The translations under genes and the position numbers were made by a program. The notes below the pieces were generated by a model. It was not told the origin of the DNA, searched no databases, and saw nothing but the letters and a program-made list of their open reading frames with translations. From positions 248,001-312,000 of the forward strand of contig NZ_JALPKO010000001.1 of NCBI RefSeq assembly GCF_023195885.1: DNA of 64,000 bases, given 5' to 3'. Shown one piece after another: positions 18,845-63,496 of the stretch (the first letter of the stretch is position 1; every line of letters starts with the position of its first letter). The stretch is from Methylonatrum kenyense. Lineage in GTDB: Bacteria > Pseudomonadota > Gammaproteobacteria > Nitrococcales > Aquisalimonadaceae.

Positions 18845-18977
18845 CGGTCAAGCGCACGTCGCCTGGATCGGGCGGTTTCCGTAGGATGACCGGAGATCCG
18901 GTGAATCGCCTCCGACAGGTGCTGTCGCGCAGGGCCGTTCTACTGATCACTCCGAATAACAACACGCCCGGAGCCCC

Positions 18978-37200: not shown

Positions 37201-37451
37201 TCCGCAGGCTTTTTGTTCGCCAAGCCAAGTAGCAAACCTTCCAGTAAGGAGCCGCACAACATAATAGTGGCCATAGGGGAATGGGAGAGACAACGCTGCG
37301 CTTCGGTAAAACGGTTTTCCAGGATAGGTATAAGCCCCGGATCTACCAAAGCGGGTGACAGGGATAAGGTTTCTATAGCCTGGGTGGTTTCGGCCTCCAT
37401 TGTTGTTATCTGAAGGCCACCCAGAGCGCGTTGTCTATCATCGCCGCTCAT
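34206..37451 (-). CDS. 1081-residue protein of unknown family with HEPN-like N-terminus
   Basis: I do not recognise this protein. Its ATG overlaps the pglX stop (TAATG) and its stop overlaps the AAA start (ATGA), so it belongs to the BREX operon. Residues 50-160 are helical and carry LRNFRNYIHPYQQ (131-143), which fits the HEPN ribonuclease motif (R132-N133...H139), after CGSLLEGLLLGLA and DWSLAQLIDVAHNIGIL. The remaining 900 residues are rich in Leu, Trp and acidic residues and read like helical repeats (WDRVNRAGW-, WSLPDELL-type blocks); no P-loop, nuclease or membrane segment is seen. Its base composition is clearly more AT-rich than pglZ or brxC. It could be a large effector or a phage-sensing scaffold; both are guesses. 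Confidence 0.85.
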   Translation of the reverse strand: MSGDDRQRALGGLQITTMEAETTQAIETLSLSPALVDPGLIPILENRFTEAQRCLSHSPMATIMLCGSLLEGLLLGLANKKPADFNRSPQSPKDENGKQKPFKDWSLAQLIDVAHNIGILRLDVKNFGQHLRNFRNYIHPYQQMKEGFDPDRYTAEMSLTAVKAAIYNLASNVRPEKDELSDDWKNHPDATLLALVSLVGSWNEKKHADKEALSRILDMRYEDWIKVAREILHLPNSPLSLKDGVWVVTHRKELFNLLGSRILDPNLEVFKSLAITVLKEQDPAFELPPEERYAASIHGKVLSYSPAIRSGLAEGLAILGCYAEACSNCTLGNADITAVLAIRDIFGEADWTLWGSLNGLLPTLSEAAPKEFLDAVETALRSSPCPFDELFVQEGVGITGSNHMTGLLWALEGIAWDEQYLVRVCDLLAELASHDPGGQWANRPANSLTDILLPWMPHTLASIEKRKVAVQTVINEWPDIGWSLLLSLLPNQHQMTSGTHKPQWRKIIPDDWEKGVTKHEYWLQTSSYAGLAVSAAGLDVAKLSELIDHFDNLTRPAFDQMIETLSSDQIRSLPEDQRQILWRRLSKFTKKHRRFPEAEWSLPDELLKPLEAVMDKLAPTDPLLLYQELFSGRDFDLYEESGNWEEQRRKLDERRASAISEIIAKDGIDGAIRFAETVSSPRDVGAALAHLSVLNIEKTLLPNFLDSENEKHLDLVGAFIWRRRHDEGWDWCDRVNRAGWSHGQIGQFLACLPFTRDAWARAGQWLDKHESQYWNRASAFPYEAKEDLGFAIDKLLEYGRPHAAINCLERMLHSKSAVDPQQCVRALLGALRSSESSHAMDSYHMVQLIKHLQSDSAVSDDDLFRVEWAYLPLLNQLDGNKPVFLHRKLANEPDFFCEVIQLIYRSNKEGDNTDKPSEDKKAIATNAYRLISEWSRPPGQMDDGSFDAEHCRNWLEKVKVTCAESGHLEPALVHIGEVLLHAPQDEDGLWIHRAAADVLNSRDSEKMRRGFHSAAFSSRGVHWVDPTAKPEKELAERYRQKAEDVENANFHRLARTLRDLSEIYDREAERIISEHHKGDEQ

Positions 37452-40400: not shown

Positions 40401-40861
40401 TGGAAAACCGGGGAGTCCAGCCGGAAAATCTGCGGTAGCATACGGGCCGCATAACGGGCGGCCAGTTCCCAGCCGTTGGTGGCGCCTTCATCGGCAGCCA
40501 GGTCTTCACACTCTTCCAGGGTGATGGCCACCGGCTCGTCCGGGTCCGGGTACATCAGCAGGTCATTTTCCGCCAGGAAGCGGGCAAAGAGCATGCGGTG
40601 CCAGTGCTCGTAGGCGATTTCCTCCACCAGGCGATCCATGGTCAGGACCTTACCGCCGTTGAGTGCGTCGCCCAGTTGGCGGCCATGGGCGCGTAGCTTG
40701 CGGCGCAGCTCCCGGTCGGTCTCGCTCAAGTGCGAGGCCGGTGCCGGGTCGCCAACGCCAAGCTGCTCCAGGGCGGCGCGGGCACCGGTTTCGGCGATGT
40801 CCCGGGCGGCCTTGACAGCGCGCTCCAACTGGCTTCTCAGAGTCTTGTCGAGTGGCTGCAT
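37451..40861 (-). CDS. pglX: PglX adenine-specific DNA methyltransferase of BREX type 1
   Basis: PglX marks host DNA at an asymmetric adenine site and is required for phage exclusion. In 1136 residues: helical N-terminal region (1-240), motif I DPCCGSGHF at 299-307, motif IV NVPY at 484-487 (the usual form is NPPY/F), then target-recognition and helical C-terminal parts ending RAARKKV. The gene is a mosaic: the ends are GC-rich, whereas residues ~357-800 are encoded by visibly AT-rich DNA, consistent with exchange of the central methylase/target-recognition part. A 152-bp gap with nested inverted repeats precedes the ATG, so pglX may have its own promoter. Confidence 0.96.
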   Translation of the reverse strand: MQPLDKTLRSQLERAVKAARDIAETGARAALEQLGVGDPAPASHLSETDRELRRKLRAHGRQLGDALNGGKVLTMDRLVEEIAYEHWHRMLFARFLAENDLLMYPDPDEPVAITLEECEDLAADEGATNGWELAARYAARMLPQIFRLDSPVFQLALPPEHQQALERQVADLPLEVFTASDSLGWVYQFWQAKKKEQVNQSEVKIGARELPAVTQLFTEPYMVSFLLDNALGAWWAARQLSEEDLKNAESEGELRQKAAIPGVPLEYLRFVKQEDATWTPAAGTFDTWPERLADLKTLDPCCGSGHFLVAAFLMLVPMRMERDGLSARDAVDAVLRENIHGLELDQRCVELAAFALALTAWKYPGAGSYRALPDINLACSGLSITAEKEDWLELAGDNNDLRMALKELYRQFKDAPVLGSLINPASSLGIGSLFELKWDEVGPLLTRALADEGNDEIAEMSVVAKGIAKAAELLASKYEWVITNVPYKTKGDLTQQLQQYLEEKHFDSKAALETAFLDRCLSSLVRGGRANLVLPQNFLFLSSYKRLRRRLLQKNKLEFISWLGEKAFTTPVDAAPILISIANQIPADSSFMALDLGDAFDVDSKANALKLSHIVFLKQQDQLANPDHRITIKSTNESSLLSAVAYSNQGIPTSDTPLFVQFFWEQFNQSEDWEYFQSTLGRSSFYGGKEKIVLYENGNGKMRALSSAQERDRGRDKQGKNAWDKTGISVNLMGTLSTSLYGGNKFDINVGVITPADKKYLAAIWTYCYSDAFDQAVRTIDKKRNVTIGTLVKVPFDLAHWTKEAEGLYPNGLPEPYSDDSTQWIFHGHLCGSVVWDEEEKWTVLGPLRTDDTVLQIAVARLLGYRWPAELDTDMELANEQREWVKRCEALLPFADEDGIVCIPPVRGEASAADRLLNLLATAYGEAWSTDVLAKLLKSADHAGKTLETWLRDKFFAQHCKLFQHRPFIWHIWDGLSDGFAVLVNYHKLGRKNLETLIYTYLGDWISRQKQDQSSGVDGAEERLAAAESLKKKLEQILEGEAPYDIFVRWKPIEQQPIGWDPDLNDGIRLNIRPFMTVGDVKKKGAGILRDKPNIKWTKDRGKDVESAPWYQTFKGERINDHHLTLAEKRAARKKV

Positions 40862-40928
40862 GTTGTTTTACGTCCCAAATCCTTGAAGTGATGCCACGGC
40901 TACTGCGCTTGTGCCGGGAAAGCACTTT

Positions 40929-41012
40929 TTCCTCTCGCATCGGTGCGGCTTGATATGCGCAATTATTACCAATAATCGCATAGTCTGCGCATAGAGTTTT
41001 CTCTATGCGCAT
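40929..41012. promoter_or_regulatory. Nested inverted repeats in front of pglX
   Basis: TGCGCATAGAG (40986-40996) and CTCTATGCGCA (41001-41011) form a perfect 11-bp stem with a TTTT loop. Just left of it ATGCG(CA)ATTATT and AATAATCGCAT pair around ACC with a 2-nt bulge. ATGCGCA or its complement recurs at least four times in about 60 bp. The block lies between the AlbA_2 gene and pglX, the only large gap within the BREX operon, and looks like a multi-site operator rather than a terminator. Confidence 0.6.
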
Positions 41013-41013
41013 T

Positions 41014-42735
41014 TCAATGCTGACGCGCATTGCTGTACTCATAGCGCGCCCAGCGCCGCTCACCCACCTGCTGGAGGCCGGTGTTCTCCTGCATCAGCTC
41101 CTGCATCAGGCGCCGGGCCTGGTTGCGATCGAAGCGCGTGATCTGCCGGATTTCCTTGTTGCTTAGGCCTGGCTCGTTGCGGCGGGCGCGCTCCATCAGA
41201 ATACTGAGTACGCGGGTTTTGGCGGCCTCCCAGTCGATGCGGCGGCGGGCCTCGCCCTGGCCGTCTTCGGCCAGGCGGTTATAGAGGTCCGGGTGAACGC
41301 ACCAATAGGCTCCCCGGCCAGTGCCGCCATGCTCGATATAGCCGGCGGACTCCATGGCCGAGAGCCGCTCGCGGATTTCCGCCTCGCTACGCTGACACAG
41401 GGCTGCGGCGGTTCCAGTATCCAACTCCGGATGTTGCAGCAGGTATTGCAGCAGCAGGAGCTCGTCCACGCCCAGGTTGCGGCCATGCTCGCTCTCCTCG
41501 GCCACGAACAGGCGGAAGGCGGCATTCAGGTCCCGTTTGGGAAAGCTCACCAGCACGGATTCGCCGATCTCGCGGATCTGGGGCGGTTCCTTGCCTTCAA
41601 TGAGCAAGGCGGAAAACATGCGGTTTATTCCCAGGTTGCTGCGGTTGACCAAGCGTAAGCGTGTCAGAGCCTCCACCAGCAGCGGATTTCGGGCGGCGGG
41701 CTGGTGATGGAGGATATTGTTGGGAGTAATGCCGGCAATGAAGCCCCCGTTGTTGCTGATTTCCAGCCGGTCCGGGTAAAGCTTGACCATCACCGGCCCG
41801 GCGATGCGCAGATCCGCATGGCAGAAGGCATTCATCAACGCCTCGCGCACGGCGATTTCCGGCCAGGTGCGGTATTCGTAGTGGAACAGGCCCTGCTGAT
41901 AGGTGGTGATGGGGTTGAAGGGGACCAGCAGTTCTTCAATGCGTTGAACGGACAATGGCAAGGCACTGACCCGATCCTCCCGGATGCCGTACTCGGTATC
42001 CGAAGTCATTTGCAGGAACGTCCAGTTGTGGCCGGGAAGATGCTCCCGGATGGCGGCTTCGGTACCGGCCAGCAACAGCGCCGCGCGAGTCAGTTTGCCG
42101 TGCTTGATCAGGCCCAAGGTGGACAGCAGCTCAACATCGGTCAGGCGTAGCAGGTCCTCCGGCGCCCGCTCCTTGCGGGCCTGATTGCGTAGGGACTCGA
42201 GGGCGGTGGCGGATAGTAACTGGTTGTCCACGGGGGAGACGGCTTCGCCAGTGTAATCGGTCTCGCCCGTTTCCACCCCGATTTTGCGGCGCAAGGTGCC
42301 GGTGAGCGGCTGGCAATCTTTGCCTACACGGATGGTGCCCCGGCCAGCGCTGTCGGTGTAGGGCGGCATGCCGGGGTAGATTTGCATAAGCAGCAGGCGA
42401 CCGGTGCCCTCCGGCACGACCAGCTCTTCGAATACCGGGGTTATTTTCGGATCCGTCTGGTCGTAAACCGCCTTTTTCAGCAGGTTGATGTCGATTTCCG
42501 GCGGAACGCCGATAATGGCACTCTCACGCCCTTGGGACCGGTCGGCCACCCCAAACACCACGGTACCGCCGCCGCCGTTGGCCATGCATACGGCCATCTG
42601 GACCACGGTTTTTACAGCGTTGCCCCGGCTTTTTTGATCCCACTGCTTGAAATCGAGGTCTTGGTCTTCCAGGTCGTCGGCGATGCAGTGCTCCAGTTCC
42701 GGGAGCAACGACTCTATGTTGGCGGCGGTCCTCAT
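41014..42735 (-). CDS. AlbA_2/HATPase-type ATP-binding regulator-like protein, BREX accessory
   Basis: A 573-residue protein of the group often annotated as RecG-like or Schlafen-AlbA_2 ATP-binding protein. Residues ~15-135 form the AlbA_2 domain (DLDFKQWDQKSRG, CMANGGGGTVVFGVAD); ~260-400 is a GHKL-like HATPase_c_4 domain (EIAVREALMNAFCHAD, RLEISNNGGFI); the last 150 residues contain winged-helix segments (SNKEIRQITRFDRNQARRLM). Such proteins are thought to be DNA-binding regulators. It follows brxC by 33 bp and precedes the repeat-rich gap before pglX, so it might control that gap (inference). Confidence 0.88.
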   Translation of the reverse strand: MRTAANIESLLPELEHCIADDLEDQDLDFKQWDQKSRGNAVKTVVQMAVCMANGGGGTVVFGVADRSQGRESAIIGVPPEIDINLLKKAVYDQTDPKITPVFEELVVPEGTGRLLLMQIYPGMPPYTDSAGRGTIRVGKDCQPLTGTLRRKIGVETGETDYTGEAVSPVDNQLLSATALESLRNQARKERAPEDLLRLTDVELLSTLGLIKHGKLTRAALLLAGTEAAIREHLPGHNWTFLQMTSDTEYGIREDRVSALPLSVQRIEELLVPFNPITTYQQGLFHYEYRTWPEIAVREALMNAFCHADLRIAGPVMVKLYPDRLEISNNGGFIAGITPNNILHHQPAARNPLLVEALTRLRLVNRSNLGINRMFSALLIEGKEPPQIREIGESVLVSFPKRDLNAAFRLFVAEESEHGRNLGVDELLLLQYLLQHPELDTGTAAALCQRSEAEIRERLSAMESAGYIEHGGTGRGAYWCVHPDLYNRLAEDGQGEARRRIDWEAAKTRVLSILMERARRNEPGLSNKEIRQITRFDRNQARRLMQELMQENTGLQQVGERRWARYEYSNARQH

Positions 42736-42768
42736 GGATTACGTCATTCCCGTTATTCGACTGGCTCA

Positions 42769-45700
42769 TTATTTGACGGAAATTGGCCCGTCTGGCAGCG
42801 CAGCCTTGAGTTGTTGCTTCACTTCCTCGGCCCAGGCATCGATGTCTTCGTCAGACCTCAGCGTGCGGCGGGGCACATGGATAAACTGGATCTCCGGCTC
42901 GCACAGCTCGGCCGCAGCCACGGCCACATTGTCAAAACGGCTCGGAAGTGCGGCGACGCGATCGGCAAACATGGCCGGAGCGCACTGATCCAGAGTGCTC
43001 AACACCTCTTGGGTGGATTGAACCGCGATCTTGGGCTGATCGGCCAGGGTCAGACGCTGGTCTGCCAACAGTTGGTGTCGCTGTTCGGGCTCCAGTTGCT
43101 GCCAGTTGCTGTCATCGGCCAGGCGAGCCATGCCTTGCTCGTGGCGTTTGCGGTAATCCTGGTCCAGTTGATTCAGCGCATCCCGGAAAGCCTGGGTCAG
43201 GCTGGTAATCAGCGGTGCCACCGCATCGGGGTCGGTCAGCAACTGTCGCTGCTGTTCAATGGTTTCCACCTGAGCACGGAAGACATCGGCATCGTCCAGC
43301 CCACCTGCATGGGACATCAGTCGCTTCAATACCGCCCAGTTGGGCCAGCGCTGGTGAATGCGCTCCGAGAGGTGCTCCCAGGTCTCGATGTTGGAGGCCA
43401 GCTCTTCGCGCCGGTTATAGAGCGCCACCAATTGCTCGTTGCCGGCGGTGAGGCGAATGTCGTCAAGGAAGCTGGTATCCGGGCGCTCCGGCTTGGGCGC
43501 CTCTCCGCCGGCCTCGTCAGCCAGGTCGGAAAGCTTCTGAAGAAACTGAGGCACATACGCCAGCTCCTCACCCTGCTTGGCGGACAAACCCACCTTCTGC
43601 AGCAGCTTACGGATCTGGATACGCTGGGGGGTAGTGACGGTGGCGGACTCTACCTTGAACTGGATTTTGCCAATGCTCTTGCGCTCCAGGCTGGAGGGTT
43701 CAAGAGGTTGGCCGCGCTCGTCCTGGGCGCGGATAAGGCCAGCCACCAACAGGGCCTGGAGGCCGCCGTCCACGGCGTCGCGGGACCAGCCATAGGGGGA
43801 AGACTCAAAAAGGGTACGAATATCCGCGCCTCTTTTGCCGCCGGCAATGGCTGCCAGAATGGCTTTGCACACTGGGTTTTTGGCCGGCTCGCCATCATCT
43901 CCCACGGCCTTGAGGGCGTCTGGGGCACCTTTCTGGGCCTTTTCGTAAACCTTGGACCAGCCGGCATGGTCAGCGGTATGGAAGTGAGGGTAAAGCCGTT
44001 GCAGGGCGTTGTTGGCGGCTTCCAGGATCATTTCCTGGAGATCGTTGCCCAGAATCTCGTTACCGCCCCCCTGGAAAACACGGGCTCCGGAGAAGGCTTC
44101 GTTCAGTAATTCCCGGATCTTGCCCTCAGCAGTCTGCTTGGTGGTTTCCATGGCAGCCCGGGCCTCTGTGCCTTCCGGGGTGTTGGAGACGCCCCGCTTA
44201 TCCAGGGTGGCACTAGCAGCCTTGTGGTCGATCAAATGATGGCGTAGGTCATCCGCAGAACGCTTAGGGATGAACACGAATACGGTGGGCGATTGGTTAC
44301 CGGCTTGCCGGGCATCGGCGCGTACGGAGTTCTCGTCGCCGCTCCATCCATCCCGAACCCAGACGCAAATACGTTGGTCGGCATCGTCTGGCAGCTGCGC
44401 GTCGAATACCGGGTAGATATCGCGGGTGACTTTTGCATCACCCTGAACCAGCGACAGCTTGCGGGCCGCCTCGCCAAAGATGCGGCGGATACGGTCATCG
44501 CGTTCGGCATGAATGCGGTGCGCCTCGCTGGATAGGGCCGCGCGTTGGCTGAGGAATTCGTCTGTCCAGGCGGCGCTCTCTTCGGTCTGTATGCGGTACT
44601 CATCGCCGACTTTCATCAGCAGCTCGCAGCGATCCAGCAATCCCGGAAGTTTGCTGCGCAGGCCGCTGCTTCCACTGGCCAGGTCCTCGACGAGCAAGTC
44701 CGCCAGGGAATCCACCGTGGCACGAATACCGATTTCGTTGTTCTGACCGCCCAGCTTGTTAATTAGGAACACCAGGCCACAGGCCCGAGCCATCAGGCGC
44801 TCGTCGTCCGAGCCCTTCATCCAGCTCATGGTTTTTTCATGAACCTTGCGAGGCAGAATGCGCGACTGGAGCAGCTTGTCGGCAGAATCGAAGTACAGGT
44901 AATCCGCTGGCACCACATAACCCAGCGGATCCTCAAGGTTGGTCTGGATGACCTTGTGCACCATGCTTAGCTGGTTGCGCAACTGGCTGTCGGTACCTGT
45001 TTGATCCAGCACACGAAGGGTGTTTTCCCAAAAACGTCTGCGAACCGGCAGGATTGGGTAGTCCTGCGGGAAGTAGGGCAAGTCATCCTGACGGTGGCCG
45101 AGGGTGGTTCCGTCCAGATGTCTAGAGATTTCCCCCAGGTTGGTTTGCATTATCTGCTCAATGGGGGACTTGGCTTCCGGCTTTTTGGCTAGGATGACCT
45201 GTCGAATCACGGCATCCACATCGGCGTCCGAGAGCTCGACGCGGATGGTAAAACGGCCCTCGAGCTTCTTCAGGTTACTGGTGCCGGTAACGGCGGTCTG
45301 ACCGGTACCAATAAACAGAAGCTTGCCAGCAAAGTTCTTGCAACACGCTTCCACCACTTCCTGTACGGCGATGGAGCGCTGGCTGTCCTCACCAATAAAC
45401 TGTTGAACTTCGTCCAGAACGACCAACGTCAGCGGGAATTTGCCCTCTTGTGTCAAAGCTTGGCGAATGGCCTTGAGCATGTCGTCACTGGAGATGTCCT
45501 GAACGTACGGATACAGGTTGTTCAGGGTTTCGACGCAAGACGCTGGTGAGGTAAACAGAGCGGGCTTGGCCTGTACCAGAGCATCGTGCAGACCTTCGGC
45601 CACGTAGAAATTATCCAGCTCTTCATTCCAGTCGAAGCCGTTGGCTTCCACCTGTTTGCGCACCTGGTCATAGATGCCCTCGTGCCTGAGCCACATGACG

Positions 45701-46206
45701 AAACGGGCAACCGGGTACTGCTCCGGCAAATCGACAGACTTAAACAGAATTCTGAGCAGGGCGAGGCGTACACTGCCGCTGGCACCGGAGCCCAAGGTCC
45801 CGGACGCGGCATGCAAGCTGCCATGACGCTTGGCTTGAGTGCTGAGTTCCCTGAGGTGATCGCTGATGCCTTGGGGCAGTTTAGCAATTCCCCGTGACGT
45901 GGCTCCGTCCTCAAAGGCGGTATCCACCCACAGTGCCCGCAGCATTTTGACCAGATGGGATTTGCCGGACCCATAGAACCCACTCACCCACACTGCCGGC
46001 TGCTGCGCCTGGTCGATATTCTTGAGGTAGGTTTCGAGGATGTGTGACATCCCTTTTTCGTACTGACCATCACAAACGAACGTTTCCAGTTCGTAGCGAA
46101 GAACCGCCAGGGCATGGCTTGTGGTCTCGTCGTTGACGCTTGCCACCCCCTCGTTGACCAGCTTCTGGGTGGTTGGATCCTTCTGATAAATGTCACGATT
46201 CTTCAT
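42769..46206 (-). CDS. brxC: BrxC ATPase of BREX type 1
   Basis: Large P-loop ATPase of the BREX core, 1145 residues from the ATG at 46206 (MKNRDIYQKDPTTQKLVNEG), preceded by AGAGG six bases upstream. Walker A GFYGSGKSH is at 76-84; LTLVVLDEVQQFIGED is the Walker B region and LLFIGTGQTAVTGTS a sensor-type motif, all in the first 330 residues. The rest is long helices with coiled-coil stretches near the C-terminus (RREELASNIETWEHLSERI). BrxC is required for both methylation and defence where tested. Gap to brxB is 14 bp. Confidence 0.96.
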   Translation of the reverse strand: MKNRDIYQKDPTTQKLVNEGVASVNDETTSHALAVLRYELETFVCDGQYEKGMSHILETYLKNIDQAQQPAVWVSGFYGSGKSHLVKMLRALWVDTAFEDGATSRGIAKLPQGISDHLRELSTQAKRHGSLHAASGTLGSGASGSVRLALLRILFKSVDLPEQYPVARFVMWLRHEGIYDQVRKQVEANGFDWNEELDNFYVAEGLHDALVQAKPALFTSPASCVETLNNLYPYVQDISSDDMLKAIRQALTQEGKFPLTLVVLDEVQQFIGEDSQRSIAVQEVVEACCKNFAGKLLFIGTGQTAVTGTSNLKKLEGRFTIRVELSDADVDAVIRQVILAKKPEAKSPIEQIMQTNLGEISRHLDGTTLGHRQDDLPYFPQDYPILPVRRRFWENTLRVLDQTGTDSQLRNQLSMVHKVIQTNLEDPLGYVVPADYLYFDSADKLLQSRILPRKVHEKTMSWMKGSDDERLMARACGLVFLINKLGGQNNEIGIRATVDSLADLLVEDLASGSSGLRSKLPGLLDRCELLMKVGDEYRIQTEESAAWTDEFLSQRAALSSEAHRIHAERDDRIRRIFGEAARKLSLVQGDAKVTRDIYPVFDAQLPDDADQRICVWVRDGWSGDENSVRADARQAGNQSPTVFVFIPKRSADDLRHHLIDHKAASATLDKRGVSNTPEGTEARAAMETTKQTAEGKIRELLNEAFSGARVFQGGGNEILGNDLQEMILEAANNALQRLYPHFHTADHAGWSKVYEKAQKGAPDALKAVGDDGEPAKNPVCKAILAAIAGGKRGADIRTLFESSPYGWSRDAVDGGLQALLVAGLIRAQDERGQPLEPSSLERKSIGKIQFKVESATVTTPQRIQIRKLLQKVGLSAKQGEELAYVPQFLQKLSDLADEAGGEAPKPERPDTSFLDDIRLTAGNEQLVALYNRREELASNIETWEHLSERIHQRWPNWAVLKRLMSHAGGLDDADVFRAQVETIEQQRQLLTDPDAVAPLITSLTQAFRDALNQLDQDYRKRHEQGMARLADDSNWQQLEPEQRHQLLADQRLTLADQPKIAVQSTQEVLSTLDQCAPAMFADRVAALPSRFDNVAVAAAELCEPEIQFIHVPRRTLRSDEDIDAWAEEVKQQLKAALPDGPISVK

Positions 46207-46220
46207 TAACAACCTCTTAT

Positions 46221-46772
46221 TCAGTAATCCTTATCCGCCGTGATAGGCATGGCGAGATAGTTCCACCCGTCGTAACCGTCCAGTAGTCGATAGTTGTTGT
46301 TTTCGTAGCTTCCAGGAAAGAACACCAGCAGCCGCCCCGGCACCTGGGGAGCGAGCTTGTCGACCACATCCTTCACCTTCAGGAAGCCGAACAGTGATCC
46401 AACGCCCTGGATTGCCACCACGGTGTTCTCGCGAATATTGCGGATGTCGAGAAAGCGCTCGAACTCATTCACGATGTAATCGAGATACTTGGGCAACACA
46501 GTGGCGAGCAAATGCGGCTTCTGGAAGTAGCTCTTGGCATAGCGCTGGTTACTGAGCCAGGCTGGAAAAGTATTGGTCAAATCAAACAGAGCCCAGTCGT
46601 GGCCGGCCTGTTTGGTGACGATTTCGAATTCATCGACTCGGGCCCGGAGCCAGCGCTCCTCGTTCTCGTGATACACACAGAAAATGACGCGCTGTGCAGC
46701 AGCTGCATCGTCCCGCCAGGGAATGGATATATACCTGCCGTAGGATTGTACTAACCGTCTAACCCTGCTCAC
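46221..46772 (-). CDS. brxB: BrxB (DUF1788) of BREX type 1, GTG start
   Basis: A 183-residue DUF1788 protein. The GTG at 46772 begins VSRVRRLVQSYGRYISIPW and overlaps the brxA stop by 14 bp; no ATG is available nearby. Family blocks include VIFCVYHENEERWLRAR, WALFDLTNTFPAW, VVAIQGVGSLFGFLKV and the C-terminal LLVFFPGSYENNNYRLLDG. BrxB is a core BREX protein of unknown biochemical activity that has been found to associate with PglZ-BrxC type complexes. Confidence 0.94.
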   Translation of the reverse strand: MSRVRRLVQSYGRYISIPWRDDAAAAQRVIFCVYHENEERWLRARVDEFEIVTKQAGHDWALFDLTNTFPAWLSNQRYAKSYFQKPHLLATVLPKYLDYIVNEFERFLDIRNIRENTVVAIQGVGSLFGFLKVKDVVDKLAPQVPGRLLVFFPGSYENNNYRLLDGYDGWNYLAMPITADKDY

Positions 46773-54701: not shown

Positions 54702-55054
54702 GGCGCAACTCCTTATGCAGCGGGCCGGAAATATTATCCGCCCAAGGGGGCCAGCCTTGCGCTGGCATTCTCATCCGACGTTGCGATGCCCCGCGACACC
54801 CCGCCGTTGTCTGTACAAATTGACCGTATCACCGTCGCCGACGACGAGATAGCCGGGCCGATACCGGGCCATGTAGGCGATTAGACGGTTGATGACGACA
54901 GCTTTCACGCGGAACGGCTGCCGGGTTCGGCCAATATCTTCTTAGACCTCCGGCTTTACTTACATGACACCAACGTGCCATCCGTTTACGACAAGAAATG
55001 TCGCAGGGCGGTTAGATGCTTAGGTCGGCGCCTGAGCAATCGAGGAGTGCCTGC
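54702..55054. other. 353-bp intergenic region with one palindromic site
   Basis: No gene is well supported. A 45-codon minus-strand frame from a GTG at 54908 to 54771 reads VKAVVINRLIAYMARY and looks protein-like, but has no ribosome binding site and could be a gene remnant. The CGACA-N5-TGTCG site at 54989-55003 lies 52 bp before the next gene. Confidence 0.45.
54989..55003. promoter_or_regulatory. CGACA-N5-TGTCG palindrome, site 2 (before the 55055 gene)
   Basis: CGACAAGAAATGTCG has perfect 5-bp arms and a 5-bp spacer. It lies 52 bp before the ATG at 55055, within repressor range. Confidence 0.65.
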
Positions 55055-55488: not shown

Positions 55489-55503
55489 CGACATGCGTTG
55501 TCG
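55489..55503. promoter_or_regulatory. CGACA-N5-TGTCG palindrome, site 3
   Basis: CGACATGCGTTGTCG has perfect 5-bp arms and a 5-bp spacer. It lies 49 bp before the ATG at 55552, the same distance as site 2 from its gene. Confidence 0.6.
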
Positions 55504-56558: not shown

Positions 56559-56571
56559 GACGATCTATGCG

Positions 56572-57121: not shown

Positions 57122-57143
57122 GACCGCGGATTATTCCGCGGTC
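57122..57143. repeat. Perfect 9-bp hairpin GACCGCGGA-TTAT-TCCGCGGTC
   Basis: An exact stem-loop just upstream of palindromic site 4 and 78 bp before the next start codon; it lacks a T-tract. Either a terminator remnant of the preceding gene or a further binding site. Confidence 0.55.
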
Positions 57144-57220: not shown

Positions 57221-58957
57221 ATGAATGCGAGACCACACGACATCCCTTCCCTTTCCGTTGACCACCTGGGTGGCGCACGCCTGATTGGTGGCAGCGGCAC
57301 GCTGCGTCCGAATACGCCCGAGCTGCGGGCGCTGGACGTGGTGGATTCCCCCACGCTTCGAATCCTGGATCTGCGCGGCTGTGCCGAAGGCCTGCACCTG
57401 ACCCTGGCGGGCACGCCGGAGTTGCGGCAGATTTTGTTGCCTGACTCGGGGCCTGGCGCGGTGATCCACATTGATGCCTGCCGGTTCAAGCCGAGCCTGA
57501 CCATTCAGGGCCTGCTGGACGAAATCGACGGCTGCAACGCGCTGCACACCTTTGCCCTGCGCTCGCCGGCCGGTGCGCCGTATCGGCGGGTGACCGTTGG
57601 CGCACGGATTGGTCGCGAGACCGAGGCCGCGGTGCTCTGGCGGCAGATGGTCAGGGCGTCGGAGATCGCGAAGCGCGCGTCGGCGCTGCGGCATTTTCAC
57701 GCTGTCGATACGTTCCTGATCGGGGACGTCGACCTGCGGGCCTGCACCCAGCTTCGTAGCTTGACGCTGGATGACTGCGGCAGCACGTCGCGATTGGCCT
57801 TGCCCGGCGGCATGCAGGAAGTGGTGCTGCACAAGGTGAAGGACGTGCGCCGCCTGGGCGGGACCGGGCAGCTCTTGCGCCTGTATGGCTGCACGACCCC
57901 CCGGTTGCTCATCGAGGGCGGCTGGGAACAGGTCCTGCTGGATGATGGCGAGGCCCCGGACGTGACCGCCGAGGACGTGGACTGGCTGCACCTACGGGGG
58001 GCGCAGCGGGTGCGTGACCTGACCGTGGGGCCGCAGACGCAATTGTGGTTCCAGGCCGTGCCGCCGGATGTGGTGCGCGGCGGGCAGTTGAGCCTCGCCA
58101 CCGACTGCGATCGCACCGTGGCCCGGCTGCTGCAGAACCTGGAGCAAGGCGAGCCGGACGCCACCGAGCAACTGCGCTGGTTCTTCGCCCGCCACACCGG
58201 TGACACCGGCAATCTGCACCGGTTGCTCGGCTTGTCCCGCGGCCTGGGCCGGATCGATCCCGGCCTGCTTTGGGAACTGCGCTGCCTGACCCACGCCGCG
58301 CACCAGCCTCGCTTCCGACAGTCCGCCACGACCCTCGACCAGGCCCTGGAATTTGCCGGGCAGACCTGGCGCTGGCGCTTTCCGGTGGACCTGGCCGGCG
58401 AGGGCTGGCTGGCCGACCTGCGGCTGGCCGAGGCCGCGCTGGAACAACCCGCCACAGCATCCTTCCGCAAACGCCTGACCCGGGTCTCGACGCTGGACAA
58501 CGTCCAGGCCCTGGGAGCACTGCTGCACAGCGCGCGCCGGGAACAGCGGCTGTCCGATCTCTCGCCAGTTCTGGTCGATGCCTTCCGCGGTGGCTGTCGC
58601 CGCCTGGTCCGCAATCTGCGGCGGCAGCGCCGTCAGTTCCCGGCAGCCGCCCAGGTGGTGCCGGTGATCCGCGGCCTCGTGGCACTGCGCGACCGGGACA
58701 ACGCGCATCGGCTCCGCGTGGTCATCCGCGATCGCGCGATGCCGGAGGGAAAACTCGAGTTGCTGCACGGGCTCGCAGTGCATGGCCTGGACCAGGCGCG
58801 GAGCGACCTGCTGGCCATGCTGCATGAACCGATCTGGGGCCCCGGGCTGGATGACCTGCACTACCGGGTCCGGCGCCTGGCACTGGCACCGGCCCGCTCC
58901 AACGACCTGGCCACCACCGACCAACACGAGGAGACCGGCAATGACGGACACCATTGA
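57221..58957 (+). CDS. Repeat-containing protein of unknown family, first gene of MoxR-VWA operon
   Basis: A 578-residue protein with AAGGAGG seven bases before the ATG. Residues ~10-300 show repeated short beta-type units of the kind LRALDVVDSPTLRILDLRGC, LRSLTLDDCGSTSRLALPGG and VDWLHLRGAQRVRDLTVG, like a leucine-rich-repeat or beta-solenoid fold; residues ~300-560 are helical and Arg-rich (RRLVRNLRRQRRQFPAAAQ). No catalytic motif is visible. It overlaps the AAA gene by 17 bp. Such a protein could recognise the substrate or trigger for the ATPase-VWA pair (inference). Confidence 0.8.
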   Translation: MNARPHDIPSLSVDHLGGARLIGGSGTLRPNTPELRALDVVDSPTLRILDLRGCAEGLHLTLAGTPELRQILLPDSGPGAVIHIDACRFKPSLTIQGLLDEIDGCNALHTFALRSPAGAPYRRVTVGARIGRETEAAVLWRQMVRASEIAKRASALRHFHAVDTFLIGDVDLRACTQLRSLTLDDCGSTSRLALPGGMQEVVLHKVKDVRRLGGTGQLLRLYGCTTPRLLIEGGWEQVLLDDGEAPDVTAEDVDWLHLRGAQRVRDLTVGPQTQLWFQAVPPDVVRGGQLSLATDCDRTVARLLQNLEQGEPDATEQLRWFFARHTGDTGNLHRLLGLSRGLGRIDPGLLWELRCLTHAAHQPRFRQSATTLDQALEFAGQTWRWRFPVDLAGEGWLADLRLAEAALEQPATASFRKRLTRVSTLDNVQALGALLHSARREQRLSDLSPVLVDAFRGGCRRLVRNLRRQRRQFPAAAQVVPVIRGLVALRDRDNAHRLRVVIRDRAMPEGKLELLHGLAVHGLDQARSDLLAMLHEPIWGPGLDDLHYRVRRLALAPARSNDLATTDQHEETGNDGHH

Positions 58958-60074
58958 ACAACAACTGCTGGCCGCCGCGTCGCTGGACGATGTGCGCAGC
59001 ATTCTCAAGCACCAGGTGCAGGCGATTCACGCGGCGCCCGAACTGGCCGCCACGTTGCCGCCACTGATGCTCTGGGGCCCGCCCGGGGTGGGCAAGAGCA
59101 CGGTGATGCGGGAGGTCTGCCGGGACGAGGGCATCGACTTCATCGACATCCGGCTTGCCCAGCGGGACCCGGTGGATATTCGCGGCCTGCCGGTGCCCCG
59201 CGGTGAGGCGGTGCAGTGGCTGCTGGCGGATGATTGGCCGCGCGACCCGGACAGCCACGGCATTCTGCTGTTCGACGAACTCACCGCCGCCGACCGCAGC
59301 CTGCAGGTAGCGGTCTACGAACTGATCCTCGACCGCCGGCTGGGCAGCCTGTACCAGTTGCCCGACGGCTGGCTGGTCTGCGGCGCCGGCAACCGGGCCG
59401 AGGACGGCGCTGTGTCGCTGGGTTTTTCCAGCGCGCTGGCGAACCGGTTCTGCCACCTGGAACTGCAACCGGAACTCGCACCCTGGATTCGCTGGGCACT
59501 GGCCCGGGGCATCCATCCGGATGTGATCGCCTTCCTGCGTTTCCGGCCGGCGTGTTTCTTCAACATGGAGGGCGACACCGAGCGCGGCTGGCCCAGCCCG
59601 CGCAGTTGGGAGCGGGTCAGCACCATCTGCTGGCAGACCCGTGACGGCCTCGGCGAGCGCGCCGCCGAACTGATGATCAGCGGCCTGGTGGGGCCGGAGG
59701 TGGGCAACGAGTTCCTGGCCTTCCTGTCCTGGCATGGTGCCCTGCCTGACGTCGGCGCGATGCTGCGCGGCCAGGCGCCGATCACGATCCCCGAACGGGC
59801 CGATCATCGCTATGCCCTTTGCGCGGCCGCGGTGCACCACCTGTGGCATGCCGACAACCAGGACAACGAACGGCTCATGGCCGGCTTCTTTCGCCTGACC
59901 GAGGCAATGAGCAGCGACTTCGCCACGCTGGCGCTGATGGACGCGCTGCAGGGCCCGGACGCGGCCAGTACGCGGCAGCGCTGTGAACGACTGTTCGCCC
60001 ACCCGGGCTTCGCCCGCTGGTCCGAGACCCACGGCAGCGCCTTTGCCGAGCAGTGGGAGGCGGAACCGGCATGA
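58941..60074 (+). CDS. MoxR-type AAA+ ATPase
   Basis: A 377-residue AAA+ protein from the ATG at 58941 (MTDTIEQQLLAAASLDDVRS), with GAG seven bases upstream. Walker A GPPGVGKST is at 46-54, ILLFDELTAADRSLQVAVYELI is the Walker B/helix-2 region, and CGAGNRAEDGAVSLGFSSALANRF contains sensor 1 and the Arg finger. MoxR ATPases act with VWA-domain partners as chaperones; the partner is the next gene, which overlaps by 4 bp (ATGA). Confidence 0.93.
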   Translation: MTDTIEQQLLAAASLDDVRSILKHQVQAIHAAPELAATLPPLMLWGPPGVGKSTVMREVCRDEGIDFIDIRLAQRDPVDIRGLPVPRGEAVQWLLADDWPRDPDSHGILLFDELTAADRSLQVAVYELILDRRLGSLYQLPDGWLVCGAGNRAEDGAVSLGFSSALANRFCHLELQPELAPWIRWALARGIHPDVIAFLRFRPACFFNMEGDTERGWPSPRSWERVSTICWQTRDGLGERAAELMISGLVGPEVGNEFLAFLSWHGALPDVGAMLRGQAPITIPERADHRYALCAAAVHHLWHADNQDNERLMAGFFRLTEAMSSDFATLALMDALQGPDAASTRQRCERLFAHPGFARWSETHGSAFAEQWEAEPA

Positions 60075-61183
60075 GCAGACATGACGCGATGCAGCACCTC
60101 TGGCAGAGCGACCGCACCGAACTGCTGCTGCGCTTCCCGTTCCTGGGCCTGCTGGCCATGCAACTGGAGATCCAGGTCGGTGACTGGCAAGCGGTGCCGG
60201 CAGCCGCCACCGATGGCGAGTCGGTGTTCGGCAATGTTGACTACCTGGAATCGCTGACCGACGAGGAACGCCTGTTCGTGCTGGCCCATGAGGTCTGGCA
60301 TTGCGCGGCCATGCACCTGCAGCGGCGCCTGGGACGGAACCCACGGCTGTGGAATGTGGCGGTGGACTACGAGACCAACGCGGTGTTGAGCGAGGCCGGG
60401 CTCAGCGTGCCGAACGGCGCGCTGCTGCTGCGCGGCCGGCGCGGGCGCAGTGCCGAGGAACTCTACCGCATGCTGCTGGACAGGCTGCCCCCGGATCGTG
60501 GGCCGTTCGCTGATGGCCATGGCCCGGCAAACGGCGGCGACTGGCCGGGCCGGCAACGACCACCGGAGGGCCGGGGAATGGCGCGACGCCTGCAATCCGC
60601 CCTGCAACAAAGCGGGCAACTGGCCGGCGACATGCCGGGCACGCTGGGGCTGGTGGTGCGCAGCTTGTTGCGCTCCGAGACACCCTGGCAGCGCATCCTG
60701 GCCCAGTTCGTCGGCAACCTCCGGCGCGGCGAGCCCAGTTGGTCCTGGCCCAACCGAAGACACCTCAGCCACGGCCGCTACCTGCCCGGCGCGTCCAACC
60801 GGCAACCGCGTATCGCCGTGGCCATCGACACCAGCGGCAGCACCAGCCGCCTGCTGGGCCGCTTTCTCGGCGAACTGGATTCGATTCTACGGGCAAGCCG
60901 CGCCGACACGCCGGTCCGCGTGCTGCAGTTCGATGCCGATATACAGATCGATGAACGGCTGAGCGGTCCGCTGCGCAACCGATTGAACCGGCTGCGCGGC
61001 GGTGGCGGCACGGACTTCGTGCCGCTGTTCCAGCGCCTGCAGGACGAGCCACCGGATGCACTGGTGATCCTCACCGACGGCATGGGCCCGGCACCGAGCC
61101 GCGCACCAGGCTGGCCGGTGCTCTGGGCGCTTTCCGGAAACGGAACGCGTCCGGTGCGCTGGGGTGTTGAGGTTAAGGTGTAA
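60071..61183 (+). CDS. DUF2201-type metallopeptidase-VWA protein
   Basis: A 370-residue protein from ATG 60071 (MSRHDAMQHLWQSDRTE). The N-terminal part has a zinc-peptidase motif HEVWH (73-77, in FVLAHEVWHCAAMHLQRR) with YETN downstream; the C-terminal part is a VWA domain with MIDAS residues DTSGS (253-257), GGGGTDF and ILTDGMG. The combination is the DUF2201 family, which pairs with MoxR ATPases. A GTG 18 bp upstream is a less likely start. The role may be targeted proteolysis or metal insertion controlled by the ATPase; the substrate is unknown. Confidence 0.92.
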   Translation: MSRHDAMQHLWQSDRTELLLRFPFLGLLAMQLEIQVGDWQAVPAAATDGESVFGNVDYLESLTDEERLFVLAHEVWHCAAMHLQRRLGRNPRLWNVAVDYETNAVLSEAGLSVPNGALLLRGRRGRSAEELYRMLLDRLPPDRGPFADGHGPANGGDWPGRQRPPEGRGMARRLQSALQQSGQLAGDMPGTLGLVVRSLLRSETPWQRILAQFVGNLRRGEPSWSWPNRRHLSHGRYLPGASNRQPRIAVAIDTSGSTSRLLGRFLGELDSILRASRADTPVRVLQFDADIQIDERLSGPLRNRLNRLRGGGGTDFVPLFQRLQDEPPDALVILTDGMGPAPSRAPGWPVLWALSGNGTRPVRWGVEVKV

Positions 61184-61250: not shown

Positions 61251-61556
61251 ATGGATATCATCCGAAGTGAACCATTCGGGCGATGGCTTCGCAGGCTGAA
61301 GGATCGGCGAGCGAAGGCTCGAATCTTGATGCGGCTCGATCGCCTTGCGCTGGGAAACCCCGGCGATGTGAGACCGATCGGGAGCGGCCTGAGTGAGTTG
61401 CGTGTCGACGTTGGACCGGGCTACCGCATTTATTTCATGCAAAAGGGCCAGGCCCTGATTGTCTTGTTATGTGGCGGCGATAAACGCTCTCAGAAAAGGG
61501 ATATCCTGCGAGCGCATTTGATCGCGCGAGAATGGGAACAGTTGCACAATGCCTGA
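61251..61556 (+). CDS. RelE/ParE superfamily (HigB-like) toxin
   Basis: A 101-residue protein, MDIIRSEPFGRWLRRLKDRRAK at the start, of the phage Gp49/addiction-module-killer type. Family blocks: ARILMRLDRLALGNPGDVRPIG, ELRVDVGPGYRIYF and VLLCGGDKRSQKRDI; basic residues at the end match the RNase-type active surface. Members usually cleave ribosome-bound mRNA. It overlaps the antitoxin gene by 8 bp. Confidence 0.9.
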   Translation: MDIIRSEPFGRWLRRLKDRRAKARILMRLDRLALGNPGDVRPIGSGLSELRVDVGPGYRIYFMQKGQALIVLLCGGDKRSQKRDILRAHLIAREWEQLHNA

Positions 61557-61863
61557 AAAATTCAGCCCGCATGAGACTGCGGACTTCCTGGACACAGAGG
61601 AAGATATTCGCCTGTACCTGGAAGCTTGCCAGGAAGACGGTGATCCGAAACTCATTGCCATGGCTTTGGGAAACATTGCCAAAGCGCGGAATATGACCCA
61701 GTTGGCCGAGGAAGCGGGACTGACACGCGCCGGCCTGTACAAGGCACTTTCGCCAGATGGTAATCCGAGCTTCGCAACCGTCTCACGTGTTGCGCATGCC
61801 CTTGGCTTACGAATCAGCCTCCAGCCTCTTTCCCAGAATTCGACGTCGCAGCCCGGTACCTGA
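61549..61863 (+). CDS. HigA-like helix-turn-helix antitoxin
   Basis: A 104-residue protein, MPEKFSPHETADFLDTEEDI, of the addiction-module antidote type. The N-terminal 40 residues likely bind the toxin; residues 50-95 form a Cro/CI-type HTH (MTQLAEEAGLTRAGLYKALS). It should repress its own promoter together with the toxin. Translation is coupled to the toxin gene by an 8-bp overlap. Confidence 0.9.
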   Translation: MPEKFSPHETADFLDTEEDIRLYLEACQEDGDPKLIAMALGNIAKARNMTQLAEEAGLTRAGLYKALSPDGNPSFATVSRVAHALGLRISLQPLSQNSTSQPGT

Positions 61864-61927: not shown

Positions 61928-62629
61928 CTAGACAGCGTCAACTTCGAGAATCAACGGCACATGATCGCTGTCTGTTAGCCAATGGTGGAACGGCTCGACG
62001 CGGAACCCTTGAACAGAGAGCTGATCGCCGACAAAGCAATAGTCGATGTGAAACGGCTTTTCCGGGTTCTTGGTGTGAAGAAATGTGGGCTGCTGTTCCT
62101 CACCGAAGGCGTCGCCAGTATCCGAGTGATAGACGCTACGCATACCCAGCGCGGAACAGGTTTTGACGATATCGGCGAAGTTGTACTGACCGCGGGCCGT
62201 ATCCCATTTCAAATTATTGTTGAAATCTCCGACCACCAGACTTGGGCCAGCGCCAAGCCAGTCTGACAGTTCGACGATCACCTCACGGGCATTACCGGTG
62301 CGAGCATCGCCGAACTTCTGCGCGCGAAAATTGAAGGCCCAGACGGCCAGGAGCCTGAGATTCAATCCGGGCAGTTCGATGGGCAGGAAATATGTCCAGG
62401 CTGGACTTTCCAATCCACAAACCCGTGATTTGCTGTCGCGACAGAGTACGCCCAGGCCCTTCCTCGGATTGTCACCTCGCCAGTGAAAAGTAAATCCCTC
62501 GGGGACGTCGAGGTCACGCTCGCATTCCTGGACCACTGCGACGTCGGGCTTGAGTTCCGAAAGCTTCGACAGTTTCCTGCCAAGCTGATTGTTACAGTTC
62601 CAACTGATGATTCGGGTCACAGCGTTCAT
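61928..62629 (-). CDS. Endonuclease/exonuclease/phosphatase family protein
   Basis: A 233-residue EEP-fold hydrolase. Active-site blocks are all present: RIISWNCNNQLGRKL (metal Asn), VAVVQECERD (Glu), LVVGDFNNNLKWD (Asp/Asn) and the C-terminal TDSDHVPLILEV (Asp-His). Members hydrolyse phosphodiesters in DNA, RNA, lipids or nucleotides; the exact substrate cannot be told. It overlaps the ADP-ribosylglycohydrolase gene by 4 bp (ATGA), so the two are cotranslated. Confidence 0.9.
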   Translation of the reverse strand: MNAVTRIISWNCNNQLGRKLSKLSELKPDVAVVQECERDLDVPEGFTFHWRGDNPRKGLGVLCRDSKSRVCGLESPAWTYFLPIELPGLNLRLLAVWAFNFRAQKFGDARTGNAREVIVELSDWLGAGPSLVVGDFNNNLKWDTARGQYNFADIVKTCSALGMRSVYHSDTGDAFGEEQQPTFLHTKNPEKPFHIDYCFVGDQLSVQGFRVEPFHHWLTDSDHVPLILEVDAV

Positions 62630-63408
62630 GGCTCGCGCACACCTGCGGCAGCATCTTGGAAGGCATTGAGCTGATCGATGAACGGTATCGGCAGCCTTCG
62701 CCGGGCCTCGTTCTCCAGTTTCGCCGGTACACCGCCATACAAGGCCTCGGCGATGCTGCCGGTGATCGCAGCCAGCGTATCAGCGTCACCGTTGATGGCC
62801 ACGGCGTTGCGGATGGCATCCTCGAAATCGGTCGAGGCCAGAAAGCAGATCAGGGCCTCGGGGATAGTACCCTGGCAGGTCTCGTTGTAGTGGTAGGTCT
62901 CGTAGAGGGTCTGCATGCTGCGGTCGAGATCGTAGCCGAAGTCCTGACCGATGCGCTGGCGGATGGTGTCACGGTCGGCGCCGCGGCGTGCCAGGAAAAT
63001 TGCCAGCGCGGTGGCACGGGCGCCCTTGATGCCCTCCGGATGGTTGTGGGTGACCTCGGCGGTTCGTGTTGCCTCCTCCAGAACCTGCCGCTCGTCGTCG
63101 AAATACCAAGCCACCGGACTTACCCGCATGGCCGAGCCATTGCCGAGACTGTTGTACGGCGACAGGTCCGGCGACTCGCACCATTTCATGAACCGGAGCC
63201 CCCAGGACTGGTGCGGCTCGGCCTGGAAGGCCTTGCGATAGAGCAAGGCATAGGACTCGCCGGTCTGCAGCCCGCGCGCCGTCATCAGCGTGAGCAGCGT
63301 GTCGTCGGTGTAGTGGCTGTCCTGGCGGAACAGTTCGAAATCCTTGTCGGCTACCCGACTGAATTCATACGGCGATCCGATGATATCGCCAACAATGGCT
63401 CCCAGCAT
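62626..63408 (-). CDS. ADP-ribosylglycohydrolase (DraG/ARH-type)
   Basis: Removes ADP-ribose from targets. The 260-residue protein starts MLGAIVGDIIGSPYEF; the Mg-binding Asp residues are in YTDDT (33-37) and in NGDADTLAAI near 205-214, and SLGNGSAMRVSP and THNHPEGIKGA are further signatures. GGGGAGG precedes the ATG by seven bases. It is followed by the EEP gene and is divergent from a phosphatase gene across two palindromic sites. Confidence 0.94.
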   Translation of the reverse strand: MLGAIVGDIIGSPYEFSRVADKDFELFRQDSHYTDDTLLTLMTARGLQTGESYALLYRKAFQAEPHQSWGLRFMKWCESPDLSPYNSLGNGSAMRVSPVAWYFDDERQVLEEATRTAEVTHNHPEGIKGARATALAIFLARRGADRDTIRQRIGQDFGYDLDRSMQTLYETYHYNETCQGTIPEALICFLASTDFEDAIRNAVAINGDADTLAAITGSIAEALYGGVPAKLENEARRRLPIPFIDQLNAFQDAAAGVREP

Positions 63409-63456: not shown

Positions 63457-63471
63457 CGACAGATTACGTCG
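63457..63471. promoter_or_regulatory. CGACA-N5-YGTCG palindrome, site 5
   Basis: CGACAGATTACGTCG lies 49 bp before the ADP-ribosylglycohydrolase ATG. One arm position deviates (CGTCG). Its complement differs from site 4 at one position. Confidence 0.65.
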
Positions 63472-63481
63472 GATGCCAAAA

Positions 63482-63496
63482 CGACAGGATCTGTCG
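63482..63496. promoter_or_regulatory. CGACA-N5-TGTCG palindrome, site 6
   Basis: CGACAGGATCTGTCG has perfect 6-bp arms and a 3-bp spacer, or equally the 5-5-5 form of the other sites. It lies 43 bp before the phosphatase ATG; centre to centre it is 25 bp from site 5. Confidence 0.7.

Follow-up and report, generated by a model that had tools for sequence, protein, structure and literature searches.

RavA and ViaA form a chaperone pair that consists of a MoxR-type ATPase and a VWA partner. In another MoxR-VWA chaperone, NorQ acts on its VWA partner NorD (PMC13036017). Kaur et al. 2020 (PMC7159879) described four MoxR-vWA ternary conflict systems, naming VMAP, iSTAND, FtsH and beta-propeller components; the systems are marked by statistical enrichment in multicellular prokaryotes, a sensing role was proposed for the third component (PMC7159879, PMC12839542), and in that text a metallopeptidase was named only rarely as effector (PMC7159879). 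A MoxR and metallopeptidase-vWA pair was found in group 2.2 jumbo phages by Iyer et al. 2021, who proposed a part in virion assembly (PMC7824862), and this pair probably belongs to the DUF2201 family. WYL repressors of the BrxR/CapW type bind palindromes in defence promoters (PMC9122601, PMC9122589, PMC9122588), and the reported BrxR sites have half-sites 5 bp apart (PMC9122589, PMC9122601). Here we describe three overlapping genes, A, B and C, in a window of 64,000 nucleotides of Methylonatrum kenyense (positions 248001-312000 of contig 1, C1, in a genome of 2.95 Mb). With a confidence close to even but short of it, we read them as a MoxR-VWA ternary conflict system under WYL control whose third component is new, and in which A would be the sensor or adaptor and C the peptidase. 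No description of A or of the triad was found in the literature searched, which left most subscription papers outside.

The triad resembles the ternary conflict systems in its MoxR ATPase with intact Walker A and Walker B motifs, its adjoining vWA protein with a metal ion-dependent adhesion site (MIDAS, DxSxS), its third conserved gene and its conflict-type context. Unlike those systems, it has a protein A with no Pfam match at E ≤ 1, a comparison in which profile libraries can miss fast-evolving VMAP, iSTAND, FtsH or beta-propeller versions; its vWA protein has an N-terminal DUF2201_N metallopeptidase domain instead of changing C-terminal effectors; and WYL-type palindromes lie upstream. Six aligned C proteins, among which our own C alone was scanned whole against Pfam, share one layout with the VWA domain last and no variable C-terminal effector. 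Because its vWA protein is without such effectors, we class the triad as a variant that would work like the Kaur systems and place it outside their four types. With the jumbo-phage pair and the bacterial MoxR-DUF2201 pairs it shares the two-gene core, a MoxR ATPase next to a vWA protein whose N-terminal part is a metallopeptidase; in the pair loci that we examined, in contrast, no A was found, and the B of the triad falls in a separate clade. The pairing of a MoxR ring with a VWA partner is also that of NorQ-NorD and RavA-ViaA, but no respiratory client gene recurred among the triad neighbours examined. We know of no VWA partner of the NorQ-NorD or RavA-ViaA type that is an HExxH peptidase. 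As for BrxR/CapW, a WYL gene lies near the triad operon in most loci, and a predicted palindromic operator stands in the promoter with half-sites 5 bp apart as in BrxR; the predicted site differs from the published Acinetobacter site, and precedes several operons including recC.

Linkage, motifs and divergence of the three genes

The overlaps claimed in the first-pass annotation were found to be 17 nucleotides between A and B, with the start of B placed at 58941 and not at the longer open reading frame (ORF) start 58782, and 4 nucleotides (ATGA) between B and C. Our set of ten A proteins comes from nine genomes or plasmids, treated as nine loci: our own genome with A and its paralogue A' (the latter in stretch L007, just beyond the window), G029 (locus L008), G027 (L009), G043 and G041 of the same order, G721 of the same class (triad locus L150; L215 is another stretch of this genome), plasmids of Sphaerotilus sulfidivorans and Azospirillum brasilense (L014), and Alishewanella tabrizica. 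B or its remnant stood beside A in all nine loci, and A adjoined B or a B remnant within about 2.5 kb in 9 of the 10 cases, eight of these nine with C. A is thus not found mostly without the ATPase-VWA pair, and the proposal that the three genes co-occur as a unit held. The order A-B-C was contiguous on one strand in our own locus and in L011, L013, L014 and L150, while A lay on the opposite strand in L009 and L015, and a WYL gene separated A from B in L010. In L008 only about 87 residues of B could be matched before the remnant ended; the ORF that follows contains a transposase, and C was not found. This locus (L008:11758-14129) has the appearance of a decaying triad in which A and the WYL gene remain and B is shortened. 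Downstream of C on the Azospirillum plasmid lies a second DUF2201 VWA-like piece, which is incomplete (L014:14030-14500).

The eight B proteins that accompany A formed one clade with support of 100/100 in a tree of 79 B proteins, from which the G029 remnant was left out and which has long branches elsewhere. Whole-genome samples followed the same pattern. A clear A was present in 5 of 54 genomes of the order; these five, and no others, have a B with at least 59% identity, one such B being a fragment. Within the class, A was clear in 2 of 369 genomes, the same two having a B match of 60% or more; a B-type match was present in 107 of the 369, and the remaining 105 matched at 36-47% and had no A. 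Our own genome was the only one with A among 398 of the phylum. For the class and the phylum, scoring went no further than the top three first-look candidates of each genome, so that 2/369 and 1/398 may be low. Two weak A matches were dropped before counting, one in G026 of the order sample (8.4e-4, 18 bits) and one in G510 of the class sample, a genome without B (1.7e-4, 20.7 bits, an 84-residue frame). In the more distant MoxR-DUF2201 pairs, both bacterial ones and those on viral contigs, C stood alongside B, and a profile search for A in 79 other loci and 46 viral loci with distant B returned none, many of the loci counted as A-less being cut short or holding only a marginal MoxR match. A third gene common to the pair-only loci was sought as well: none is shared by most of them, and the neighbour upstream of B that five Clostridia-type loci share resembled a large helicase by eye in L023, the one inspected, and is no relative of A.

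The MoxR assignment of B, and the intactness of its motifs, were upheld by the alignment of six B proteins, in which Walker A (GPPGVGKS), Walker B (LLFDE) and GNR (residues 150-152) were kept and mostly invariant. For C, the DUF2201 assignment with both HEVWH and DTSGS sites also proved correct: Pfam matched DUF2201_N (5.4e-32; 111.9 bits against a cut-off of 23.2) and DUF2201 (2.8e-22; 79.6 bits against 26.4), both above the gathering scores, as expected of DUF2201 metallopeptidase-VWA proteins, whose putative peptidase part has the conserved HExxH. When our own C was aligned with 28 bacterial and viral-contig relatives, H77, D99, D253, S255 and S257 were invariant and H73 and E74 were kept at 90% or more; the HExxH and MIDAS motifs are therefore strongly constrained and not due to chance. 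The C model, with a predicted local distance difference test score (pLDDT) of 83, showed a VWA fold at residues 194-370 (best Z 13.0, root mean square deviation (rmsd) 3.4 over 154 residues), in a structural comparison that barely probed the peptidase half. From these motifs, C would be an HExxH metallopeptidase that cleaves a target.

A changes fastest among the three, with a mean pairwise identity in the same six loci of 27%, against 44% for C and 61% for B; within the ten A proteins, residues 30-105 reach an identity of 37% and residues 106-295 only 18-20%. The first-pass annotation had assigned A to no recognised family, and indeed no Pfam, NCBIfam or PADLOC model matched it at E ≤ 1. Two cytochrome c' entries were the only results of a PDB profile search (E 0.26 and 0.7) and were taken as chance. 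A scan of the genome contigs with A alone gave no relative, and tblastn gave no match in phages and two records among plasmids. For the further suggestion of a leucine-rich-repeat (LRR) or solenoid-like protein there is evidence on both sides. In its favour, the first 300 residues of the ten A proteins have a hydrophobic periodicity of 11 residues (with 300 composition shuffles as reference, z was 9.0, falling to 5.0 at lag 9 and 3.3 at lag 22; kinship inflates these values), and LRR ectodomains ranked first in a second structural comparison of residues 9-285 (Z 9.6, rmsd 4.1 over 234 residues, the typical best chance Z being 7 to 8). Against it, the AlphaFold model, made from two input sequences, was poor overall (pLDDT 52, predicted template modelling score, pTM, 0.32), and Pfam LRR models gave no match at E ≤ 1. 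In the AlphaFold model pLDDT averaged more than 70 over residues 21-80 and some 70-83 over residues 201-270, regions drawn with regular beta strands, and residues 296-555 were mainly helical with two low-confidence strands at 370-389. A HEAT-like reading of this helical half (Z 9.1, rmsd 6.0) was no better than chance for helical repeats and is not claimed. We tentatively describe A from this model as an LRR-like solenoid with a helical half, that is, LRR-like and not an LRR protein. The sequences show the linkage, the single B clade, the motifs and the different rates of change, and we read A, B and C as one functional unit.

A predicted WYL operator

The palindrome CGACA-N5-TGTCG, which lies 58 bp upstream of A, occurs 12 times exactly in our genome against 4 for the reversed control, and 8 of the 12 sites fall within 266913-322655 (56 kb). 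The shared palindrome named in the first-pass annotation was not specified further; this site recurs across the island, whereas the perfect hairpin at 57122-57143 occurs exactly only once in the genome and was ruled out as a shared operator. The hairpin is possibly a terminator of the preceding genes. Distances from palindrome to the next start were 34 and 46 bp for the phosphatase genes, 74 bp for the ADP-ribosylglycohydrolase gene and 45 bp for the tandem-AAA gene. A' has an exact palindrome 195 bp upstream and a one-mismatch copy at 9 bp, the WYL gene has a one-mismatch palindrome 125 bp upstream, and 2 of the 8 island sites (window 55489 and L007:19641) have no obvious promoter position.

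Palindromes stand upstream of A or its operon in 7 of the 9 loci, one of them with single mismatches. The distance to A, 58 bp in our locus, is 46 bp in L008, 48 in L010 and 65 in L150, and L011 has one-mismatch copies only, at 51 and 109 bp. The site in L013 lies 45 bp before a tandem-AAA gene, apparently the first gene of the operon to which A-B-C belong; in L015 one exact palindrome lies 38 bp before B and another 56 bp before the MPPE-A pair. Since A is split from B-C in L015 and each part has a palindrome of its own, the genes would behave as a unit even when split. Tandem-AAA genes have a palindrome 45-52 bp upstream in 3 of 4 loci. The recC gene of G721 has one about 53 bp upstream of its called start (L215:12019), which together with the site before recC in our own genome hints that recBCD may be part of the same palindrome regulon.

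Six WYL-bearing triad loci outside our own genome contained 8 exact sites in 97 kb, where 100 shuffles gave a mean of 0.09 and a maximum of 1; 125 loci without A, which were not taxon-matched, contained 1 exact site in 1,844 kb. Twelve further genomes were counted against the control. The count was well above it in G721 (11 to 0), and near it in G001 (4 to 5), G002 (4 to 3), G003 (2 to 2), G025 (3 to 2) and G027 (2 to 1). Both sites of G043 (77% complete) are in its triad locus, and G041 has no exact site. No exact palindrome was present in the DNA read for L009 and L014, the two loci without a WYL gene, and L014 has two one-mismatch copies. The WYL gene of G800, a genome without A, has a site 94 bp upstream, and in G019, also without A, sites lie 104 bp upstream and 31 bp downstream. 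Read both ways, 23 sites gave the pattern GCGACA-N5-TGTCGC, these being sites picked because they match.

One WYL gene family (30-71% identity between loci) has a member no more than 6 kb from a triad gene in 6 of the 9 loci; this family was not found in L009 or L014, nor at E ≤ 1e-25 in G027, the genome of L009. PDB matches of our WYL protein at E ≤ 0.001 were a WYL domain-containing protein, a DeoR-family regulator and PafC. The WYL protein would be the one that binds GCGACA-N5-TGTCGC, the predicted operator.

Defence genes and other neighbours

The remark that the triad lies beside BREX was accurate, with models for BrxL, PglZ, PglX, BrxC and BrxB matching upstream of it (Table 1), and our locus also holds a ZacC-type gene by PADLOC. 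Among the BREX genes, between those for PglX and BrxC, a Schlafen AlbA_2-type protein has a RecG-like C-terminal domain (41014-42735). Just upstream of the triad, a LEM-3-like GIY-YIG ORF overlaps a WapI-like immunity ORF (55803-57063). Past the ADP-ribosylglycohydrolase gene follow a dual-specificity-type phosphatase, a tandem-AAA ATPase, A', and a second phosphatase 61% identical to the first. A' starts 5.4 kb past our own C, and two small genes without a Pfam match separate it from the phosphatase gene downstream. Further on, a WYL gene stands with Wadjet JetA-, JetC- and JetD-type genes.

Table 1. Positions of the triad, the palindromes and the neighbouring genes (window coordinates unless a locus or contig is named).
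Feature	Position	Strand	Evidence
Predicted operator, 51 bp upstream of recC ORF (18978)	18913..18927		
recCBD	18978-28061		RecC by Pfam; RecB 56%, RecD 57% identical to G721 counterparts
BREX genes, neighbouring system: BrxL, PglZ, HEC-01B/A-like, PglX, BrxC, BrxB and others	28093..46772	-	PADLOC
Exact palindrome between leftward BREX-side genes and ORF 55016	54989..55003		
Exact palindrome 300 bp upstream of GIY-YIG ORF	55489..55503		
Perfect hairpin GACCGCGG-ATTATT-CCGCGGTC, 8-bp stem, upstream of operator and A	57122..57143		
Predicted operator CGACATAATCTGTCG, 58 bp upstream of A	57149..57163		
Gene A, putative LRR-like solenoid plus helical protein, 578 aa	57221..58957	+	ORF, periodicity, model, homologues
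Gene B, MoxR-type AAA+ ATPase, 377 aa	58941..60074	+	Translation, Pfam AAA 1.8e-5, motifs, clade
Walker A GPPGVGKS of B, residues 46-53	59076..59099	+	Translation, alignment of 6 B proteins
Gene C, DUF2201_N putative metallopeptidase plus DUF2201 VWA-like domain, 370 aa	60071..61183	+	Translation, Pfam, model
HEVWH of C, residues 73-77	60287..60301	+	Alignment of 29 C proteins
DTSGS MIDAS motif of C, residues 253-257	60827..60841	+	Alignment of 29 C proteins
RelE/ParE-type toxin-antitoxin pair directly after C	61251..61863	+	TIGR02683 3.6e-38, TIGR02684 3.5e-33
Endonuclease/exonuclease/phosphatase-family gene	61928..62629	-	Pfam PF03372 2.1e-7
ADP-ribosylglycohydrolase-like gene	62626..63408	-	Pfam PF03747 6.9e-37; 50% relative beside triad in G721 (blastp)
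Two predicted operators, 63457 (one mismatch) and 63482 (exact), between ADP-ribosylglycohydrolase gene (-) and phosphatase gene (+)	63457..63496		
A', second A gene, 35% identical to own A, just beyond window	L007:11568-13421 = C1:314568-316421		Homologue search
ADP-ribose/NAD-linked and phosphatase genes	window 62626-63408; L007:8530-9210, 14782-15351; L013:6977-9548; L150:14127-14951		
Tandem-AAA ATPase family	L007:9122-11314; L009:15934-18333; L013:4821-6980; L015:15144-17381		Own copy with IetA-like AAA domains

The unit is not confined to housekeeping contexts, known defence genes being present on the stretch or contig in 5 of the 9 loci: our own (BREX, Wadjet), L008 (BrxA, BrxB, BrxC), L009 (McrBC-type genes), L013 (BREX-2 pglZ and brxD, with Sir2 and phosphatase by annotation and a MavL-like macrodomain) and G721, where DndD/PbeC-type genes lie 18 and 29 kb upstream of A. 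In L150 of G721, RecB and RecD genes directly precede A, and a HigB-type toxin gene and an ADP-ribosylglycohydrolase gene follow C. AddA/B-type genes, by their Pfam domains, adjoin the triad in L014, and a candidate PDC-S26 gene lies on one side in L015. This location and the shared palindrome support the stress or conflict role suggested in the first-pass annotation.

Among the 25 neighbour proteins compared, which are not all of the neighbours, WYL, tandem-AAA, ADP-ribosylglycohydrolase and one gamma-glutamylcyclotransferase-like protein were recurrent, none of them in every locus. Genes linked to ADP-ribose or NAD (ADP-ribosylglycohydrolase, Sir2, MavL-like macrodomain) occur together with phosphatase genes near the triad in three loci. 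The tandem-AAA gene is present in 4 of the 9 triad loci, and G721 has two relatives of it further upstream. It was ruled out as an obligatory fourth component, 5 of its 7 carriers in the order being without A.

Proposed working and competing explanations

As we picture it, a WYL-family regulator bound to GCGACA-N5-TGTCGC in the promoter would hold the unit low until a signal of stress or infection. A, with its LRR-like solenoid and helical half, may then recognise a foreign or misassembled protein through its variable middle region, and the three proteins would form a complex in which A passes this target on to B, whose MoxR ring would be seated on the C protein at its VWA domain. ATP-driven movement of B would act on C, as NorQ acts on NorD, and the HExxH metallopeptidase would be exposed or fed, so that the target is cleaved. 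Such sensing by A and cleavage by C may serve a role against phages.

Several observations weigh against this reading. The LRR reading of A is tentative because its model is poor and a Foldseek search with it returned nothing at E ≤ 0.001. A' has no B-C of its own. In our own genome 21 kb separate C from the WYL gene, which precedes the Wadjet genes; genes of the WYL family are common, being present in 22 of 54 genomes of the order; and L009 and L014 keep A, B and C with neither WYL gene nor exact palindrome, so the regulator is not obligatory. Nor is the palindrome specific to the triad, since sites exceed the control in G800 (11 to 2), G801 (12 to 4) and G019 (6 to 0), none of which has A. 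When other 5-mer palindromes with spacers of 0-12 were counted in eight loci, G+C-rich patterns had as many sites or more (for example CGGCG-N4, with 14 sites in 6 loci); we kept CGACA-N5 as operator candidate because it was first taken from our own genome, is far above the shuffles and lies at promoters. Unlike BREX core components, A, B and C match no BREX model at E ≤ 1, and no PADLOC model matches A or C. Outside the five loci with known defence genes, L015 has a flagellin gene beside B, and the contigs of L010 and L011, each about 8 kb long, offer too little context for a judgement. The tandem-AAA gene, finally, occurs in 5 of the 49 genomes of the order without A, compared with 2 of the 5 with A.

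Instead of an immune effector, the triad might be a chaperone or maturase, B and C remodelling or metal-loading a host complex with A as adaptor or client and HExxH only holding metal; its seat in the island would then follow from helping to assemble a defence or repair complex. Where the function of a MoxR-VWA pair is known, it is that of a chaperone or a metal-insertion machine (PMC13036017, PMC7159879), the jumbo-phage pair has its proposed role in virion assembly (PMC7824862), the pair is common in bacteria without A, as the 107 matches in the class sample indicate, and in G721 and L014 the genes immediately before A are of the RecBCD or AddAB type, with recCBD in our own island. We judge this explanation unlikely, though less so than the two that follow: among the 25 neighbour proteins compared, which are not all of the neighbours and were not all identified, none recurs in every locus and no one client recurs, the palindrome is common to the triad and the genes of the defence island, and the much faster change of A than of B and C fits changing targets better than a fixed client.

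The cargo of a mobile island offers another explanation, in which a general stress module was acquired along with defence genes and has no role against phages. Its patchy spread in the phylum and order samples and the two plasmid copies would fit any island cargo, and WYL regulators also act in DNA-damage responses (PMC10693628); the same palindrome before the triad, WYL and other island genes in six other loci is, however, more than passive co-location would give, and we consider this account improbable. About as improbable is that A is the effector and B-C its activator, so that B and C would process or unfold A after a signal, freeing a toxic helical half that stops growth in abortive infection. 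The model of A suggests two distinct halves, A' has palindromes of its own but no B-C, which would suit an effector that is used independently, and toxin-type genes follow C in our own genome and in G721, but Pfam, PADLOC and NCBIfam recognise no toxin or enzyme family in A, and L009 and L014 retain A without the predicted repressor or operator.

If the sensor and peptidase reading holds, the triad may represent a further class of MoxR-VWA ternary immune system, in which an LRR-like sensor would trigger an AAA+-driven metallopeptidase, and one WYL repressor acting at GCGACA-N5-TGTCGC would command it together with RecBCD, the tandem-AAA ATPase, ADP-ribose-processing enzymes and, here, Wadjet, the whole island being one regulon in distant Pseudomonadota. 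This extension is possible but doubtful. MoxR-VWA machines are widespread, many of them without a known target, and the triad would be a small, complete version with a candidate sensor, motor and protease. Its predicted operator ties it to RecBCD and several defence systems and may serve as a sequence signature in the search for more members of the regulon.

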